A stretch of DNA of 64,000 bases from Cunninghamella blakesleeana (lineage: Eukaryota > Mucoromycota > Mucoromycetes > Mucorales > Cunninghamellaceae). Positions 4,576-45,809 of this stretch are shown in pieces. Positions within the stretch are counted from its first letter, which is position 1. The number at the start of each line of letters is the position of its first letter. The notes beneath the pieces are model-generated. The model saw only the letters and a program-made list of their open reading frames with translations, did no database searches and was not told where the DNA came from. The DNA lies in the NCBI GenBank assembly GCA_017871115.1, contig JAFCIZ010000008.1:868001-932000 (forward strand), in the 5' to 3' direction. Both the position numbers and the translations under genes were made by a program.

Positions 4576-5920
4576 TTATATATAACTATATATATATATA
4601 TATATATATATTATGCAAAAAGTAACAGATAGAAATGACTTTATTTTATTTTTATTTGTTATATTTATATTGATTTTCACATATTAAACATATAGCATTA
4701 TTTTCTGAATATTTATAGATAAAGTTTAAATTTAAGTTTTGATTGAAATGATAACCAATATATATATCGGTATGTTTTATTTTCTACGTAAGCTGTTTAT
4801 TATTATTAAAATTAGAAATATAAAATTATAATACATTATAAATATGTTTTATATTTGTTGCAAAATATAAAAGAAATTCACCTAAAATAACTGATAGTTC
4901 ATTAAAGGTGCTTTTTATTATTATTTTTGTTACGTATGAGTATTATTGTATTTTCATTTACGTTAATCTTTATTATATAAAAACGTTCAATATCATTCTT
5001 ATTGTTATTTTTATTAAAATATATATCAGACTATAGAATTTTTTAAATTTTCATGCTCTTTTTCATTGATACTCTTAAAAGACAATACCAAATTTAAAAT
5101 ACATAGTATTCTTTATTCAATCAAATCTAACCTATATATATATATATATATATAATCAGATATTCTTTTAAAAGCATTTTTTTTATCTAGAATTTAATAA
5201 TTACCATAGATTAATAATAATGATAAAAAGAATACTTACGCTAACGTAAAAAATAAAAAATAAAAAATAGTACATTTAAGCGCCCCAGCATTATAACTAA
5301 AATTAATATTATTAAAATCTCCAAATTCATATTTTTTTTGAAAAAAAACAGAATATCCTCAGCTTTTATACAAAATATAATGTATAAGTACATTTATGAT
5401 TTAATATAAAATAATAATAATAATAATCCAAATTTAAATTCAAATTTGAAAGTGTAATATAATGTACTATGTAATGTACGCTTATCCTTTTTTTTTTTTT
5501 TGCATTGAGGATTAAGCATTGGCGTGGCATTATCAAAAAAAGAAAGGTTATACCTCACATTTCTTTTTTTTATAATTATTTTACTTGAATATACATATAA
5601 ATATTATTATATAATGTTTTATTTTGAAAATTATCGATATATCATTATTATACAATAACTTTCTTCAACTTAAGATTATATTATTTCGTTATAAAAACAT
5701 ATATAATTAGTCAATTCTATAAAAAGTAAAAAGATGTCTGACTTTAAAATGAGATAAAACCTATTCTTTTTTTTTTTTAATTTCAATTTTTTTTTCTCTT
5801 CCTTTTTTTTTTTTCTTTTTTTTTTTTGTTCACTCTAGTTTTATTTTTTATTTATTTTTATTTTTATCCTTTCTTTTCATAATAATATTATATTTTATTA
5901 TACAAGAAAATAAAGCTAAT
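4576..5920. other. Long AT-rich intergenic region
   Basis: About 1.3 kb of very AT-rich sequence with (TA)n tracts near 4590-4612 and 5133-5154 and poly-T runs at 5490, 5770 and 5805-5827. No coding segment, tRNA or mobile-element end was recognised. The T-rich end probably belongs to the promoter and leader of the C78 peptidase gene. Confidence 0.5.
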
Positions 5921-15227: not shown

Positions 15228-17072
15228 TTAATATATATTAAAGATATAATAAACATTAGTCCAACGTAAATAATTATCAAAGATACGAAGATGGTAGTAT
15301 AATGGGAATATTATCCATCTATTTTGATTAAAATTGCCGAGTAAGTATATGCCACTCGTAACAGTAGGAGGAGGAGGATCATTAATACCGTTATTTTTAT
15401 GAATAAAAAAAGGAATATATACAACTCTTATGCTATCGTCGTCATTTAATAAATAAGTAGATAATATTTCTTCACTAATCATAGGTATTTCATTGGTAAA
15501 TAAGTAATTTGCTGCTGTGACAGAAAGGCAATTGAGTTGAAGATTCATTTGAATGTCTATTAAATTGGTGATATAAGGTAGATACTCTAGTGCATTTTCA
15601 TCCACTGAATTCCAGAACATGGAGATCATTTTAACATTCTCACATTTTTTTTCCAAAACCATAATGGCATCTTTATGTTTTTTAGCTTCATCTTCTGTCA
15701 TTTTTGTAAGGTCCAAATTTTTTGAATTATAAAGCCTTCTTTTATATTCTTCATAAAAATGAAGATACATGGATTTTTGGTGTTCTACTAGAAAATATGA
15801 ACTATCATTCAAGTATTTTTCTCGTAGATAAATACACTGGTAACTGTATTGACTAGCATAGGAAGGAATAATGGGTGAATTTGTAAAGTGTGAACATGCA
15901 TGAAATAATCTTTCTTTATCCCATAAATCATCCATGATTTCATATAATTTTACTCGAACTGATGTCATGTCTGTAATATTCCAGTTTGATATTGTATTTT
16001 TATCTTGAATGTGATAACTATATTTCTTCCATGATGGTAAAATTGCGTGAAATCGATCTTCACTTTTACTTGCATTTGAATTTAATATCATAGTCAAGTT
16101 ATCACGTATTCGAAACTTTTCCTTTAAAAAGTGCATAAGCGTGTCACGATTGGCCACACCTTTACTAATTGAGATATCAAACATGGGAATAGAATACTCT
16201 TCAATATTTAATTCCTCGTAACTAACGTCATCTATCTCTATCTTTACAGGGTGGTGATAAAGGGGGTATGAATAAAAATTAACATGTTCTTCTTTATGTT
16301 CTTCTTCGAAAAGACCAACTAATATAGATATAAACATATATTTGAAAGATAATTCTTGTTTTTCTTGTTTTTCTTTTGCAATAAGAAATTCGCTAATTAC
16401 CCAAGCACGATTTACCCAATCATTTAAAATATATGATAAAAACCCATATGCTTTCTTCATTTCTTTTTTACTATTACTGATAGGGAGTTGGTCAGTTTTA
16501 AAAAATTTTATAAGTCTACGTATATCGTTCATAATTCCATTTCCTACTTTCATTTTATGTGCATATAATGGCTGATCATGATTGTAGTTACTAATTTATT
16601 TATGTATTTTTGTACAATATTTATGTATTAAATCAAGTGCTTCCTTATTTGATGGATTCTTCGTTAAATACCCCATATGTAAATCAGGTACAGCTAAGAT
16701 ATAAGTTGCATTTTTATATATCTCTGACATTTTTAAAATGGCTTCCTTTTTTTTCGCGTGATTTTGCTGATCTATTGATATTGCATCGATCCATAAATAT
16801 GGTATTTCTTTTAGATCTGGTTCTCTTTGGATAAATGTACATAGGATCAAAAAATCATATAGATCAAATGAGGTTATATGGGCTATATAGTCCGGTGTTT
16901 TAACTGTTTGTTCAGTCAGTTCACCCCAACGGTATGATATGGAAATATATTTTAAATTTGGATCATACATATTCTTTTTAACACATTTTATATTATAATA
17001 ATATACATAAGAATATTCTGCTGAATACCATATATCAACAAGCACAATATCGAAAACCTTTTTTAGTATCAT
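15228..17072 (-). pseudogene. HET-domain locus A, interrupted by an in-frame stop
   Basis: On the minus strand 17072-16596 encodes the HET-like N-terminal domain: VFDIVLVDI, LKYISISYRWG, TPDYIAHITSFDL, YLWIDAISIDQ and MSEIYKNATYILAVPDLH. A TAA at 16598-16596 interrupts it. The same frame continues without shift through 16553-15228 with the family's second half (KKAYGFLSYI, WVNRAWVISE, SNWNITDMTSVR, QNRWI, ending FNIY). The N-terminal and C-terminal frames differ by exactly 173 codons, so one nonsense codon separates them. Splicing around the stop was tested by eye and gave a shifted frame or a new stop. The upstream PIP exon is also decayed. Probably a recent pseudogene or a truncated HET-only protein. 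HET domains are known from fungal heterokaryon incompatibility. Confidence 0.8.
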
Positions 17073-17149
17073 AAAATAAAAATAATTAATTTTAATAAAT
17101 GATTTTTATAGTAATTCTTCTTTTTTGCTATTATTAATATATATATGTA

Positions 17150-17310
17150 TATTATTTACCTTCATCTATTTTTTCTATTTCATCTTCTTGTTCTTGACGT
17201 CCGGTAATATCAAGTCTTGGCATATTTTATATATTAGAAAGTTATCTTTGGTATTTGTATTTTTTTTAAAAAAAAGAATTGATTTGTCTTGTAATAATTA
17301 TAAGTGGATA
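17150..17310 (-). pseudogene. Decayed PIP-repeat leader exon of HET locus A
   Basis: Minus-strand sequence upstream of locus A resembles the intact leader exons of loci C and D: AAAGATAACTTTCTAATATA aligns with AAAGATTACTTTTCAATAAA of locus D, coding KDNFLI against KDYFSI. The first conserved QTTLFNYF block is not found and the frame is broken. A short open piece starting with ATG at 17223 and ending at a GTAAAT donor (17159) exists, but its phase does not fit the HET exon. Assignment rests on a short alignment. Confidence 0.5.
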
Positions 17311-18320: not shown

Positions 18321-20186
18321 TTAATATATATTTAAGATAAAACCATCAGAGTGACAAGTATATTTTTTGGGTCTGTCACCTCGTTCGTACGGAGGAGCTA
18401 ATACCCATCTATTTTGCTTCATATTACCGATTAATAATATTCCAGTTCCATCCCAAGGGGGGCATAGTGCAAATTCAGACATTGCAAACGTAAAAAAAGG
18501 TATATACAAACTTATTAAATCATCATCAAGTTTTAGTGACCATGGTAAAAGCTCTTCCTGATCATAAACATGTTCTTCAAGTTTAAAAGTAAAATACTTT
18601 TTAGCTTCAACAGAAAGATAATTAAATTCACGGTTCAATTGAATATCCATTAAATTTTCAGTATAGAGAGATGAAGATAACGATTTTATTTTTTCATTAT
18701 CATCATTACCATCCAATATAAATTGTTGTATAGAATTAGTATTTCCAAATTTTTCAACTACGCAATTTTCTAGTTCAGACAAGTAGATTTCATAAGTATA
18801 TTTAGGGTGATCTTTTTCAATTATAAATAAATCCATTATACTCGTTTGGGAGGCAAAGGAAGGGAGAATAGGTGTAATTATATAAAATGAACTTGCATAG
18901 AGTAATTTTGCTTTATCCCATAAATCATCCATAATTTCATACAGTTTTAATCTAACCGATGTCATATCGGTAATCCCCCAGTTTAAAATTGTATTTTTAT
19001 CTTCAATGCAGTGACTATATTTTTCCCATGATGGTAAAATAGCATGAAAACGGTCTTCATTTTTACTTGCATTTGAGCCCAATAGCATAGGTATATGCTG
19101 TCGTTGTGTAAGCCTTTTTTTAAAATAATAGATGAATTTGCTATTACTATCCATATTTTTATGTAATCTAATTTTATTATTATCACCGTCGTTATCATTA
19201 TAATTGTTCAGAACAATATTGTAATAGTCAAATTCGTATGAGATAAAATAAGTCACCTGCGGACTTAATAGAGATATAAATATTAATTTCAAAGGCGTTC
19301 CTTGTGTTTCTTGTTTTAATTTTGCAATATGGTATTCACTGATCACCCAAGCGCGATTTGACCAATCTTCTATAAGATAGGTTAAAAACTCGTACGCTAT
19401 CTTTATTTCCTTTTTATTGGTTGGTTGAAAAATGCTTCCAAGGCAATTTAAAAGTACTTGTGCCATCATTTTAAGTTTGTTATTATCTTCATTTTTGTTG
19501 GTTGTTTGGTAATTTAAAATGAATTGATATATAATCTCTTTATGTTTTTGTACCAAGCCAAGCGCTTTTTTATTTGCTGGATTATTCCGTAAATATTTTA
19601 AATGTAAGTCAGGCACGGCTAAAATATAAGTTGCCCTCTTATATATTTCTGCCATTTGTAATATGGTTTCTTTTTTCCTCTCATCACTATTGTATTGGTC
19701 CACTGAGATAGCATCGATCCATAAATAAGGTATGCCTTCTAAATCAGGTTCCGCTTGAATATAACTACAAAGGTTGCCCAAATCATGTGGATCAAAAGAT
19801 TTAATATGTGCTGTATAATCAGGCGTTTTAACTAATTGTTCTTCCAATTCCCCCCAACGATAAGATATGGCTATATATTTCAAGTTCTGTTCGTACATAT
19901 TTTTTTCACACAATTTATGTTACTAAGAAATGAGCTCTTTATATCTACAAGCACAAGTTCAAATACTTGGGCTGTGTAAATAAAAAATAAAAATAAAGTA
20001 AAATAATAAACATTAATAAATATCTTATATGAATATACGTATTGCCTATTAGTGTTATTTATTACTCTCTTCTTTTTCTTCTACTTTGTGTTTAATACAA
20101 TCCAGTGCTGTCATTTTTTTTATTTTTAACTCTATTGTATAGGCTGTTTGTTTAATTAGTTTACTAAACAGTATTGTTTGTATTCA
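18321..20186 (-). pseudogene. HET-domain locus B with lost start and one-base frameshift
   Basis: The HET frame is open from 19913 to 18321 (LKYIAISYRWG, YLWIDAISVDQ, YILAVPDLH, SNRAWVISE, NWGITDMTSVR, QNRW, ending FNIY). Its first part lies in another frame: VFELVLVDI and NCVKK (19969-19900) join the HET frame only if the run of seven A at about 19896-19902 had eight, as paralogue coding (VKKNMY) requires. Upstream, 20186-20066 preserves a leader exon in decayed form: IQTILFSKLIKQT, then KKMTALDCIKHK, matching the PIP exon of loci C and D but with the ATG replaced and the Q-x-x-h-x-x-F-F residues lost. A GTAATA donor (20065) and ACACAG acceptor (19972) still bound the intron. The homopolymer shift could be a sequencing error; the loss of the leader start could not. 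Confidence 0.75.
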
Positions 20187-20829
20187 ACCTTATTATTTTT
20201 ATTTTTTAAAAAATAATAATGGTAAAGGTAAAGAGGAAGAAGTATAAAAAAGTAGTAGTTTTTTTTTTTAATTTATAAAAAAAATAACGGTTACCGGCAT
20301 CATCTTTATTTTTATTTTTTCAAAATTCAGCATGCATATTTCTGCCTTTTTATTTATTTTCTATTATTTTTTTACAATAAAAAATGAAAGAATCTGTTTT
20401 GATAATTAACTATATATAAAAAAGTTTCCTTTGAATTTAACCTTTTTTAGTATATACATGTTACTGATTAGGCACTTGTAACCAAATGTAACTAAATGCA
20501 CCAATTTACATATAAGGATCACGAAAGAGAATAAATAAAAAAAAAAATTAACAAAAGAGAAATATTTAAATAAAGCGCAGAAAAATATGCATCTTGTTTC
20601 ATATATGTTGAAAGTATAATCATTGGTACAACGTGATATATCTTTTAATTGATACTTGATATTGAACTTTTCAAGGACTACCTACCTACTTTGGCTAATA
20701 TTTCCGATTATATAGATACATTTAACTTTTAGGTAGACATTGTTAAAATCAGGTAGTGTAAAAGCAAAAAAAAAAATAAAAAAAAATAAAAAATAAAAAT
20801 AACATTATATAGGAAACATGCTCATACTT
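20187..20829. other. Spacer between HET locus B and relic E
   Basis: AT-rich, with poly-A/T runs and a small repeat of TACC-type motifs near 20680-20700. No coding segment recognised. It would include the original promoter of locus B. Confidence 0.4.
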
Positions 20830-21260
20830 CCACCTCGATTTGGTTTCCCATTCATCATTGTCTTCTAGCGAAACTTCTTTAAGGGACAGGACACTGGCCT
20901 TGAAAACCATTTCCTTTCAAAATAAAACATTTATTTACCGTAGTGGAAAGGCAGTGGGGATGATGATTTAATCGAATAAGCGTTGAATTTTCAGTGTAGA
21001 GTGGACTCTATTTTCTAATTCTTTTTTTCAAGTGTATTTCATTATAAAAAATATCTATACATATATATGTGTTAAAAGAAGCTATTGCTTTTTATCCCTC
21101 TTTTCCTTTTACTTTACCTTCCTCGTATTTAATATTATCTAGTGTTGTCATCTTTTTATTTAATACTAACCTTGAAAGATGATTTATCTTGAAACTTTTA
21201 TTCTATAAGCTGCTTTTCCAATTGATTTGCTATGCTATATTGTTATTATTATTATTACTA
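20830..21260 (-). pseudogene. HET-family relic E (leader plus C-terminal scrap)
   Basis: Minus-strand 20998-20830 reads YTENSTLIRLNHHPHCLS and continues with CFILKGN and, after a frame change, LSLKEVSLED. This matches YTENLMDIQLN..YLSVEAK and the following part of locus B. Further upstream, 21240-21118 resembles the PIP leader exon: a decayed AATCAATTGGAAAAGCAGC stretch, then MTTLDNIKYEEG ending at a GTAAAG donor (21117), against locus D's TILDYFKLQEGK with its GTAAAC donor. The whole HET core between the two pieces is missing. It is a third minus-strand member reduced to its ends. Confidence 0.65.
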
Positions 21261-41144: not shown

Positions 41145-43084
41145 ATGATACAAACAACTCTCTTCAACTATTTTCCGTGCAATAGCTCATCTATTAAACA
41201 GACAACTAATAAAATAAAACAATTAAAGCAAACCATCATAAACGATTACTTTGCGATAAAACCGAAAGAAAAGTCAATATTTGAATATTTTAAACAAAAG
41301 GAATATAAAGTAAAGAAAGAAAAATGTAAAAAAAAAAAAAAAAAAAAAAAAGCAATGATAAGTAACATACACGCATATATATACGCCTATATATACATAT
41401 ATACATATATATATATTAAACAGATTTATAATGGATTATATCAACTGACACTTATTATTATTATTTTATTTTGGATCCAGCTTTTGATCTTGTTCTAGTC
41501 GATATAAAAAAAACTGCTACAGCTTATCACTTTAGAAATGATATCAGCCCTTCATGTATTAAAAAGAATATGTATGATAAAGATTTGAAATATATAGCTA
41601 TATCTTATCATTGGGGTGAATTGGATGAGCAGCTAGTGACAACGCCAGATTATACAGCACATATCACTTCATTTGATTTAGTGGATTTAAAACAGCTTTG
41701 TGAATATATTATGAAAGAGGTTGATCTAAAAGAAATACAATATTTATGGATTGATGCAATATCAGTAGATCAACATAATTTTGAAAAGAAAAAAGAAGCC
41801 ATATTAAAAATGTCAGAAATATACAAAAGATCTGCTTATATCTTGGCAGTACCAGATCTACATTTTGGATCTTTAATGAAGCATGCAGCAATAAATTTGA
41901 TACAAGAATATAGGGAAGCGATACTTGAAGGTATCCTCAGTAACGTTAATCAACCAAATACTAATAAAAATGAAATTATAATTGAAGAAAATAAACATCT
42001 TATAAATTATAACCACCAGCAACTAATCAATGATAAAGCAATACAAACTGAAAATGAAGATACAAAGAAAGCTTATCAATATTTAGCATACCTTGTACAT
42101 ATATGGTCAAATCGTACCTGGGTGATCAGTGAATATTATATTGCGAAAGAAAAACAAGAAAAATATGGAACACCTCTGAAATATATATTTATAGTTTTAC
42201 TACATCCTAGAATTTATTCTTTTTTCTCATATCCTTTTGATCACCATCTATCTTCAAAACCAATAACTTTAAATTATTGGCAAGTAAATAATAGTAATCA
42301 GTTCTTCATTTTTTTAAAAGCAAGATTTGTACAACGACCATATCTAAATATGTTAATTGATTCAAATACAACTGTAAACGAAGATAGATTTTATGCTATT
42401 TTGCCATTATGGAATAAATATAGTCATTGGATTCAGAATAAAAATACAATATCAAATTGGAATATTACGGATATGACATCGGTCAGAATAAAATTATATG
42501 AGATCATGGATGATTTATGGGATAAAGCAAAATTACTTTATGCATGTTCATGGTTTACAAAATCACCCATTATTCCTTCTTTTGCTAGCCAACTGGATAA
42601 TAACTACTTGAATATTATTGAGAAAGATAATAAGGATTATGCTTATGAAATATACTCATACGATTTACTTGATACACTTGGACATGATAATTATATGCAA
42701 TTTTTATCAGAGAATAGTGTAATGGAAAATGAATCAATCTATACTGAAAATATAATTGCCATTCAATTAAACTCTCATCTGTACTGTCTTTCTATTAAAG
42801 CTTCGATATATTTTACTTTTGGCATATTAGAAAATGAGTTTAGTCAAGAATACTTATCAACCTATTCATTAAAAGATGATGCATGCTTAGAATGTGTATG
42901 TATACCTTTTTTCACTTTTGCAGTATATGATTTTACAGATAATGTTCCTCAGAATGGTAGTATTATTTTTTTACTTGGTAATTTTGGTCAAAATAGATGG
43001 ATACTCCTCCCAAGACAATCTATAAAGAGATATCCTGATGAATTTATTAGTTGCTATGATGACTATAGCTTTAATATTTATTAA
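41145..43084 (+). CDS. HET-domain protein C with triple PIP-box-like leader
   Basis: Two exons. The leader exon starts at 41145 and encodes QTTLFNYF (residues 3-10), QTIINDYF (29-36) and EKSIFEYF (42-49). The first two fit the PCNA-interacting Q-x-x-h-x-x-a-a pattern exactly and the third lacks the glutamine. A donor at 41326 (GTAAAA) joined to the acceptor at 41480 keeps phase and gives about 594 residues; a GTAAAG donor at 41310, as used in locus D, would be out of phase here. The second exon holds the HET-like domain: FDLVLVDI, LKYIAISYHWG, TPDYTAHITSFDL, YLWIDAISVDQ, MSEIYKRSAYILAVPDLH. A conserved downstream half follows: WSNRTWVISE, SNWNITDMTSVR, LYEIMDDLWDKAKLLYACS, SPIIPSFASQ, FGQNRWILLP, ending FNIY. 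The family is known for cell-recognition and incompatibility; the role here is not known. Confidence 0.8.
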
Positions 43085-43259
43085 CAAAATAAAATAAGTA
43101 AATATTTTTCTAAAATATATTTTAATACGTTTAAAAAAATGATAATATGCAATAAATCTTTTTTTTTTGTTTTGTTTTTAAAACTATTTGGAAAAATATT
43201 GACAAGGGGAACACAAAAATAACTATTATCTATTCATTCAAACGTAGTGTCAATTTAGT

Positions 43260-43448
43260 ATATATGTATATACTTATTTTTACATTTAAAATGCTTCGTT
43301 TACTAAAGCCCTCCCTTGAAATAGTTCTATTATTTTCTTTTTTGGTTATACGGATCAGAATAGGTGGATATCACTCCCACATTTCTTATTTATGGAATAT
43401 AAAAGAGAATTCACATCTTGTATTGATCTTGGTACTAATATATACTGA
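43260..43448 (+). pseudogene. HET-family relic F, C-terminal scrap between C and D
   Basis: In one frame this reads YVYTYFYI, stop, NASFTKALP, stop, NSSIIFFFGYTDQNRWISLP, then TNIY and a stop. It aligns with locus C's CIPFFTF, VPQNGSIIFLLGN, FGQNRWILLP and the FNIY end. Two in-frame stops and the absence of the HET part show a dead fragment. It lies in the same orientation as the flanking intact copies, as expected for a tandem array that has lost its middle member. Confidence 0.8.
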
Positions 43449-43593
43449 TTAATTATATATATATATTTATTTATAAAAAGTAAAATATTAATATTATTAT
43501 TATTATTATTATTATTTTAAAAAAATTACGACAATTAATATTTACCTTGTAAAATAATTACAATCGTCAATAGTGAAACGATAGAGCATAAGC

Positions 43594-43625
<32 letters not shown>

Positions 43626-43956
43626 TTAAAAAAAATAGATATGCATAGTAAAAACGCACCTGTTTGTTTTTAAATCTATTTTGGAACACTACATATGAGC
43701 ACCTGTGTTGTTTTGAGCAGTAAAAAAGAATAAAAATAATAATGATATATATAATAATTTTGATTAAACATTGATTTTTAAAGTAATATAATGCTGTTGA
43801 GGTAAAAAATCAAAAAAGGAAAGTACATGGAACTTTTCTAACTCTTTGTTAGTTGGTCAACGGAGTTATAATACAATACGAGAACAGAAGTTCAAAAGAA
43901 TTTTTTTTTACTTTATTTTATTTTTATTTTTTGTTTTTAATAATACCAACAATAAA
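43449..43956. other. Spacer upstream of HET locus D
   Basis: AT-rich, with an ATT tract (43492-43517) and a poly-A run (43600-43625). It should contain the promoter of locus D. No gene seen. Confidence 0.45.
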
Positions 43957-45809
43957 ATGATACAAACAACGCTATTCAACTACTTTAATTGTAAAGATGA
44001 TTCAATTAAATTAACAACTCATAAAATAAAACAACAACTAAAACAAACCATTATAAAAGATTACTTTTCAATAAAACCAAAGAAAAAGACAATATTAGAC
44101 TATTTTAAGCTTCAAGAAGGAAAAGTAAACGGAGAAAAAAGTAATAGCAGTCAACATATTAAAATATGAAAGAGTTTATAAGTTCTATTTATTAATAAAA
44201 CTTATTGGTTTATTTTATTTTACTTTTTTTAATTTAGAAAAAAATATTTGATCTTGTGCTTGTAGATATACACGATGCAGCTAATAATTTTGAATGTTCT
44301 ATTGACAAAAATATAGCATGCATAAAAAAGAATATGTATGATCAGGAATTAAAGTATATTGCCGTATCATACCGCTGGGGAAAATTAGATAGAAAGCTAG
44401 TGGAAACACCTGATTATGTAGCCCATGTTACTTCTTTTGACCTATCTCATTTAGAATACCTTTGTAGCTACATTCAAAAGGAGCCAGACTTAAAAGATAT
44501 ACCCTACTTGTGGATTGATGCAATATCAGTGAATCAACGAAATTACAAAAGGAAAAAGGAAACTATCTTACAAATGTCAGAAATATACAAAAGATCAACT
44601 TATATTTTAGCAGTACCTGATTTACATCTAGGACCCTTACAACAAAATGCAATAAAATTTTATATGCTCGATTTAATAGCGAAGTATAACCGTACAATTT
44701 ATGAAGATATCCTCAACAACAATAACAAAAATAAATCGCATGAGATTATAACCCAGTTTGATCGAAATGAAAGAAAAAGAGTCTATCAATTTTTCGCAAC
44801 AATTATACTAGATTGGTGGAACCGCGTTTGGGTGATCAGTGAATGTCTTATTGCAAAAGAAAAAGAAAAAAACTTTGGAATACCATTAAAATATATGTTT
44901 ATAAATTTACTTCATTGTGGAATGACCACTTTTTTTTCATATCCCTTTGATCATCAATCTACAGAGACTATGTATAATAATTACATTATCAATGGTGTAT
45001 ATGATGTTGATGTGGTCGATAGTGAAACACTTATCGAGTTCTTAAAAACGAGGTGTATACGACGAACTCATCTAGATATGATACTGAATTCGAACGCAAG
45101 TAGAAATAGTGATCGGTTCAGCTCTATTTTACCACAATGGAATAAGTACAATCACATAATTAAAAATAAATATACAATATCAAGATGGAATATTACCAGT
45201 ATGACATCTGTTAGACTAAAACTATATGGGTTTATGGATGACTTGTGGGATAAAGCAAGGCTACTTTATGCATGCTCAAAATTTATAGGTGAACCAATTA
45301 TTCCTTCCTATGCTAGTCAGTGCGATGGTTTTTATTTACAACTTGTCGAAAAGGACGATATTAATGAAGCTTATAGAACGTACACATATAAACTATCGAG
45401 CTATACACAGAAGTTTAGTACTAAATATTTTAAAAAACACATAACAAGTGAACTAGGAAATAAATTACCATACACTGAAAACTTAACATACATTCAATTA
45501 AACTCTCAATACCGTTGTCTTTCTATCAAAGCAAAGAGATATTTTATCAATAAAAATATAGAATGCAAATACGATCAAAGATTTTTATCAAAATATTCAT
45601 TAAGAAACGATAGTGGCTTAAGGAATGTATATATACCTTTTTACACCTTTGCGATACCAGGCTATACCGATCTTCATCCTTCTACTGGTAGCTCCATAAT
45701 ATTATTTGGTAATATTGGTCAGAATAGATGGATAATTATCAGCTACTCTTATTTTATTCCCTCTGAGGGAGACCTTTATGATGATATTTACACTTTTAAT
45801 ATCTATTAA
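43957..45809 (+). CDS. HET-domain protein D with triple PIP-box-like leader
   Basis: Two phase-0 exons, 43957-44124 and 44238-45809, about 579 residues. The leader exon carries QTTLFNYF (residues 3-10), QTIIKDYF (30-37) and KKTILDYF (43-50); the first two are canonical PIP-box patterns, and the spacing matches locus C. The main exon starts KKIFDLVLVDI and has the HET-like core: LKYIAVSYRWG (94-104), TPDYVAHVTSFDL, YLWIDAISVNQ (146-156), MSEIYKRSTYILAVPDLH (169-186). Its second half has WNRVWVISE, SRWNITSMTSVRLKLYG, MDDLWDKARLLYACS, EPIIPSYASQ, IGQNRWIII and the terminal FNIY. No signal peptide or membrane segment is seen, so a cytosolic or nuclear protein is likely. No NTPase or other C-terminal domain of known incompatibility proteins was recognised. 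Confidence 0.83.

Follow-up and report, generated by a model that had tools for sequence, protein, structure and literature searches.

Tandem PIP-type motifs in a leader exon of Cunninghamella HET-domain genes: a putative tether to PCNA

HET genes and their leader exons

The present study concerns a stretch of 64,000 nucleotides from the mucoralean fungus Cunninghamella blakesleeana (contig C8, positions 868001-932000, in a genome of 32 Mb and 12 contigs; hereafter the window), in which two genes, C and D, encode HET-domain proteins that are predicted to begin in a short separate exon with three motifs of the PCNA-interacting protein (PIP) box type. Their features, in window coordinates, are as follows.

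41145-41325, +: gene C leader exon, 60 codons plus one base; junction shared with the homologue P0001
41151-41174, +: C motif 1, QTTLFNYF, residues 3-10; strict PIP pattern
41229-41252, +: C motif 2, QTIINDYF, residues 29-36; strict PIP pattern
41268-41291, +: C motif 3, EKSIFEYF, residues 42-49; PIP-like, lacking the Q
41326-41480, +: C intron, GT-AG, phase 1, predicted
41481-43084, +: C HET exon including the stop; PF06985 at about 41591-42133
43957-44124, +: gene D leader exon, 56 codons
43963-43986, +: D motif 1, QTTLFNYF, residues 3-10; strict PIP pattern
44044-44067, +: D motif 2, QTIIKDYF, residues 30-37; strict PIP pattern
44083-44106, +: D motif 3, KKTILDYF, residues 43-50; PIP-like, lacking the Q
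44125-44237, +: D intron, GT-AG, phase 0, predicted
44238-45809, +: D HET exon including the stop; PF06985 at about 44355-44843; first 290 residues fold-modelled

A first-pass annotation of this DNA had described a leader exon of three tandem PIP-like motifs in both genes, the second and third starting 13 residues apart, and this arrangement was recovered at the positions given above. Motifs 1 and 2 follow the strict rule applied here, Q-x-x-[LIVM]-x-x-[FYW]-[FYW]; motif 3, with E or K at position 1, does not in either gene. The HET-like domain that it placed downstream was also recovered, and the HET exons of C and D score 50.7 and 49.6 bits, respectively, against PF06985 (cut-off 22.5).

The joining of the leader to the HET exon, likewise proposed in the annotation, is supported by predicted GT-AG introns of matching phase that leave an open reading frame into FDLVLVDI in both genes, with one further open join possible in C, and by the annotation of P0001, the C. 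echinulata homologue of gene C, which has an identical junction (...KVKKEK|S|FDLVLVDI) and is 92-93% identical across the HET exon. Of the 12 genes of this genome that have a full leader, 11 allow an open join, by a permissive test under which eight of these 11 allow more than one; the exception, at C6:3863839, has a stop directly after motif 3. A HET copy on the same contig (L021, C6:3864075, +) carries a long acidic (EEV)n repeat C-terminally.

Regarding the HET body, the AlphaFold2 model of P0001 is confident, with most body blocks above 85 in the predicted local distance difference test (pLDDT). The best-ranked solved folds for the predicted structure of the D HET domain were TIR-domain NADases, namely AbTir, SPARTA TIR-APAZ, and SARM1; a comparison of the D HET exon with solved structures by sequence returned only matches of E 0.5 and 0.85, and profiles of anti-phage defence systems gave no match to C or D.

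Sequence constraint on the leader

The annotation had reported the leader in C and D, where it is indeed present; it is not peculiar to them, because full leaders occur in 12 genes of this genome, identified as tblastn matches to the D leader, and in 28 of 98 database homologues (7 from C. echinulata and 21 from C. blakesleeana), picked by eye from the listings. These 40 sequences are related, and counts of conservation among them are not independent trials. The 12 own leaders, which were found by their likeness to that of D, contain 20 strict matches, while shuffled versions gave a mean of 0.15 and a maximum of 3 in 2000 shuffles. Among the 98 homologues, 45 strict matches lie in the first 75 residues and one in the other 48,931, and across 200 shufflings of the whole proteins the total averaged 9.0 matches and never exceeded 19.

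The expectation in the annotation that the pattern would be conserved in homologues was borne out, with strict matches in 34 of the 40 copies of motif 2 and 26 of those of motif 1; motif 3 matches in 4. In motif 1, Q, L or I at position 4, and Y at position 7 are present in all 40, with F (26), I (10), L (3), or N (1) at position 8. Motif 2 retains Q and L/I in all 40 and Y7 in 38, ends in F (33), N (4), or Y (3), and is highly variable at positions 3, 5, and 6, while motif 3 has I, V, or L at position 4 in all 40, Y7 in 39, F8 in 40, and K (31), Q (4), R (3), or E (2) at position 1. Since the first motif finder itself required part of the pattern, including Q1 of motifs 1 and 2, the residues were recounted on a plain alignment of the 40 leaders made without any pattern, which gave Q1 in 40 and 40 and Y7 in 40 and 38 for motifs 1 and 2, and Y7 in 39 and F8 in 40 for motif 3. 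Mean column entropy was 0.39 bits at the 12 core columns, 1.26 at the 12 x columns, and 2.09 at the 25 spacer columns.

Comparisons at the codon level among the 12 own leaders gave ratios of non-synonymous to synonymous differences per site (pN/pS) that rose from 0.10 at the core of motifs 1 and 2, through 0.26 at the x positions of these two motifs and 0.29 at the core of motif 3, to 0.57 in the spacers. The synonymous value (pS) was 0.48-0.74 across the classes computed, except for 0.26 at the motif 3 core, and amounted to 0.52 at the core codons of motifs 1 and 2 and 0.45 at those of all three motifs; this abundance of synonymous change indicates that the constraint acts on the protein. When 12 of 50 columns were drawn 20,000 times, the pN never fell as low as that of the 12 core columns. 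In four pairs of close orthologues, no change was counted among 48 core residues, against 5 among 48 x residues and 16 among 106 spacer residues, and in a fifth, cross-species pair none of the 20 changes fell in its 12 core residues. Judged from these sequence comparisons, purifying selection is shown to act on the leader, with its focus on the core positions of the PIP motifs.

Family, distribution, and neighbouring genes

A count over the results of the genome search gives 24 HET copies of greater length, besides fragments. The C/D type accounts for 19 of them, and the other five, on contigs C3, C10, and C11, are of a longer type in which no leader was detectable. The 19 comprise the 12 with full three-motif leaders, two with degraded leaders (L010, without motif 1, and L013), three decayed genes with a leader relic (gene B, L012, and L022), and two leaderless genes (gene A and L014). 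Genes A and B also lie in the window:

18321-19919, -: gene B HET reading frame, C/D clade, decayed start
20050-20190, -: gene B decayed leader, read from the sequence (tblastn E 4.5e-4)
15228-17105, -: gene A HET exon, in-frame TAA at 16596-16598, no PIP leader
17160-17223, -: gene A, possible alternative short first exon, no PIP motifs; splice inferred

Gene A thus seemingly uses a different short first exon (MPRLDITGRQ...) and is one among several cases of leader loss. Upstream of gene B, at 20600-21260 (-), inspection by eye suggests an older HET copy in an advanced state of decay, together with a remnant resembling the leader. Seven of eight flanking reading frames checked match ordinary cellular families (PLP enzyme pieces, a CBS domain, TGT, an aspartyl protease, a ZIP transporter, and Hsp70) and one matches none; Rfam and tRNA scans over the window gave no match.

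Of the 24 longer copies, 10 lie on contig C8 (1.6 Mb), some as neighbouring pairs, and several relic leaders are there as well. Relics at L029 (approximately 1864-2007) and L030 (approximately 2724-2858 and 5167-5298) adjoin no HET frame of at least 80 residues. The L012 and L022 regions on contig C5 are near-identical; in each, a disrupted HET copy accompanies a frame encoding a small cysteine-containing protein that is possibly secreted, and the two regions apparently represent a segmental duplication. The partial or drifted leaders of P0024, P0028, and L010 form a natural series bearing on which motif matters.

Trees were built with FastTree (95 rows) and, in a quick run, with IQ-TREE (75 rows, after 21 rows with an unassignable start had been dropped and the own gene L016 added), and both contain many weak forks. 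In the 75-row tree, all 40 leader rows fall within one Cunninghamella clade of 62 rows (Shimodaira-Hasegawa approximate likelihood-ratio test, 94), and 13 leaderless rows lie outside it. The simplest reading of this topology is a single gain of the leader followed by repeated loss. Since P0072/P0074 and P0044/C1:6743146 are cross-species pairs, the gain would predate the split of both species. The same two pairs, which occupy the earliest branches of the leader clade, are the four carriers of Q in motif 3; motif 3 was therefore probably a canonical PIP box at first, with position 1 drifting to K, E, or R in most members.

Beyond Cunninghamella, the eight Absidia and Halteromyces sequences among the 98 homologues have no leader, and many of the remaining homologues are gene models that start within the HET domain. 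A database search with the leader alone, in which 47 candidates were scored, found only its own query and missed known leader-bearing homologues, and is thus uninformative. A wider profile search, in which scoring was confined to the 7974 candidates with the most words in common, returned 71 proteins, all from Cunninghamella but one (source lgn); because even the Absidia and Halteromyces sequences contained in its query went unlisted, it does not demonstrate the absence of the leader from other genera.

A putative clamp-binding leash, its alternatives, and known systems

Considering the motifs together with their setting, the leader exon may be a disordered, lysine-rich leash with an array of PIP boxes, canonical in motifs 1 and 2, that tethers a TIR-like HET effector to the sliding clamp PCNA and thereby concentrates it at sites of DNA synthesis or repair; on the sequence evidence, we regard tethering to PCNA as the most likely reading, and as more probable than not. 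The annotation had likewise proposed that the proteins may be attached to such sites, or may sense an element that employs the clamp. Disorder is predicted by the AlphaFold2 model of P0001, in which block means of pLDDT for residues 1-60 are 39-51 and helical turns appear, at low confidence, only at the three motifs. Net charge over up to 60 residues ranges from 3 to 11 (median +8) in the 40 leaders. In PMC6881253, PCNA-binding motifs are described as lying mostly in disordered regions, and positive flanks as raising the affinity for PCNA. The PCNA of the host (C5:1118 kb) retains an intact docking loop, MDIDSEHLGIPETEYDVVV, which includes LGIPETEY. Client motifs were found, with exon joins made by eye, in host UNG (QATLFSMF, near the start), FEN1 (QSRMMDFF), and an XPG-like nuclease, the last coding exon of which contains QPTINSYF and hence a YF ending as in the leaders. 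Motif starts in the own-genome leaders are spaced by 26-29 and 13-23 residues, and in C and D the residues between motifs number 18-19 (1 to 2) and five (2 to 3). From the geometry of the PCNA ring, five residues are too short to bridge two pockets of one ring and 18-19 might suffice; motifs 2 and 3 are thus more likely to be alternative docking sites.

Several observations weigh against a PCNA tether. In 14 of the 40 leaders motif 1 has I, L, or N at position 8, 6 of 40 copies of motif 2 break the strict rule, and 36 of 40 copies of motif 3 lack the Q. A simple nuclear localization signal is present in just 10 of the 40 leaders. The leader clade itself includes 11 leaderless and 11 partial-leader rows, so that the HET domain can do without the leader. 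No PIP box was found in the examined stretches of the host DNA ligase loci L051-L053, which possibly lack the first exon, apart from a single match in an unrelated frame of L053; L049 likewise has none, and the single one in L050 is in an unrelated 19-residue frame. Lastly, residues that the PIP rule does not require are approximately as fixed as the core, namely T2 of motifs 1 and 2 (37/40), T3 of motif 1 (38/40), and the K preceding motif 2 (38/40), and conservation alone cannot name the binding partner.

This last point, together with F5 and N6 of motif 1 (29/40 each), gives weight to the main rival, that the Q-x-x-[LI]-x-x-Y-F repeats bind a partner other than PCNA (another nuclear protein, a partner in HET signalling, or one another in self-assembly) and resemble PIP boxes by convergence. 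We consider this possible, with a clearly smaller probability than PCNA binding: positions 1, 4, 7, and 8 are on average the least variable, as a PIP box predicts, motif 2 tolerates variation at its positions 3, 5, and 6, and the motif 3 copies with Q repeat the same grammar a third time. Known signalling amyloids have an alternating hydrophobic pattern, which the leaders seem to lack. A profile of 21 of the 40 leaders gave a single match to solved structures, taken as chance (E 0.76).

The basic flanks of the PIP-type motifs, and the TD pair in P0014, P0015, and P0025, could also point to a PIP degron, by which docking on PCNA would lead to destruction of the HET protein in S phase through a CRL4-Cdt2-type ligase and so limit its toxicity. 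This appears improbable, since no leader among the 40 conforms to the full rule (TD at positions 5-6 and a basic residue at +4), and position 8 is occupied by N in the three with a TD pair. It is more doubtful still that the leader derives from, or is a remnant of, a mobile-element protein with no present role in HET, an origin offered in the annotation and suggested by its separate exon and by dispersed, in several cases decayed, family copies. Leader searches of this genome led to HET-linked or decayed copies and one non-significant match (E 0.38), the motif cores are under strong purifying selection within HET genes, and the flanking frames are mostly of cellular families; a degenerate DNA pattern was too noisy to be of use (77 places against 66 in the reversed control), and a diverged donor retains a small probability. 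Chance, or an effect of A+T-rich, K/N-rich composition, for which the A+T-rich genome and the lysine-rich leaders might be invoked, was rejected on the basis of the shuffles, the positional control, and the codon analysis described above, in which core codons change synonymously while the amino acids stay, and retains a negligible probability.

If the leader does tether HET to PCNA, its location would be nuclear, and the consequence may be local nucleotide or NAD chemistry at forks, restraint of the effector by sequestration, or, as the boldest reading and the one favoured here, a guard function against abnormal or foreign clamp-associated DNA synthesis. We put forward only tentatively, and as rather unlikely in its entirety, a genus-wide, multi-copy surveillance system in which two or three PIP boxes would hold TIR-like HET effectors at the clamp, and in which perturbed clamp occupancy or foreign DNA synthesis (by a virus, a plasmid, or a foreign nucleus) would shift their local concentration and lead to NAD or nucleotide cleavage and cell death; such a system would guard the replication forks of fungi and provide a whole HET family with a physical trigger. 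HET genes are among the most abundant and least understood immune-type genes of fungi, with activators known for only a minority. A conserved clamp-binding leash on a whole HET family would name PCNA as a partner, connect DNA replication with the cell-death effectors of fungi, and open the question of the HET trigger to testing.

In comparison with known systems, the C/D family resembles HET proteins (PF06985) in its above-threshold domain and in its conserved SYRWG, WIDAIS, and W-x-x-R-x-W-V-I-S-E blocks. The TIR immune NADases named above, as the best-ranked solved folds, may have a fold in common with it; SPARTA also couples a TIR effector to nucleic acid. The multi-copy, lineage-specific distribution recalls the HET genes of PMC10197012, which describes reservoir families of allorecognition systems, including HET and TIR, with biological roles still to be uncovered. 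Unlike the known HET effectors of allorecognition and cell death, the C/D family has a PIP-type leader, a Mucorales host, and no nucleotide-binding leucine-rich-repeat (NLR) part that was seen, and its role in cell death is only putative. As stated in the annotation, no HET protein with a PCNA leader appears to have been described: the literature searched, which covered few subscription papers and no bioRxiv preprints, yielded neither a paper connecting proteins of the HET or TIR kind to PCNA or to PIP boxes nor one on arrays of multiple PIP boxes. N-terminal PIP clients, such as the UNG2 variant MIGQKTLYSFFTPSP (PMC6881253) and host UNG, share with the leader a Q-x-x-h-x-x-a-a motif near the start and a basic, predicted-disordered tail. 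It differs from such clients in its two or three tandem motifs and in a body that is HET rather than a repair enzyme. The C/D genes would represent a HET family carrying a new targeting module.

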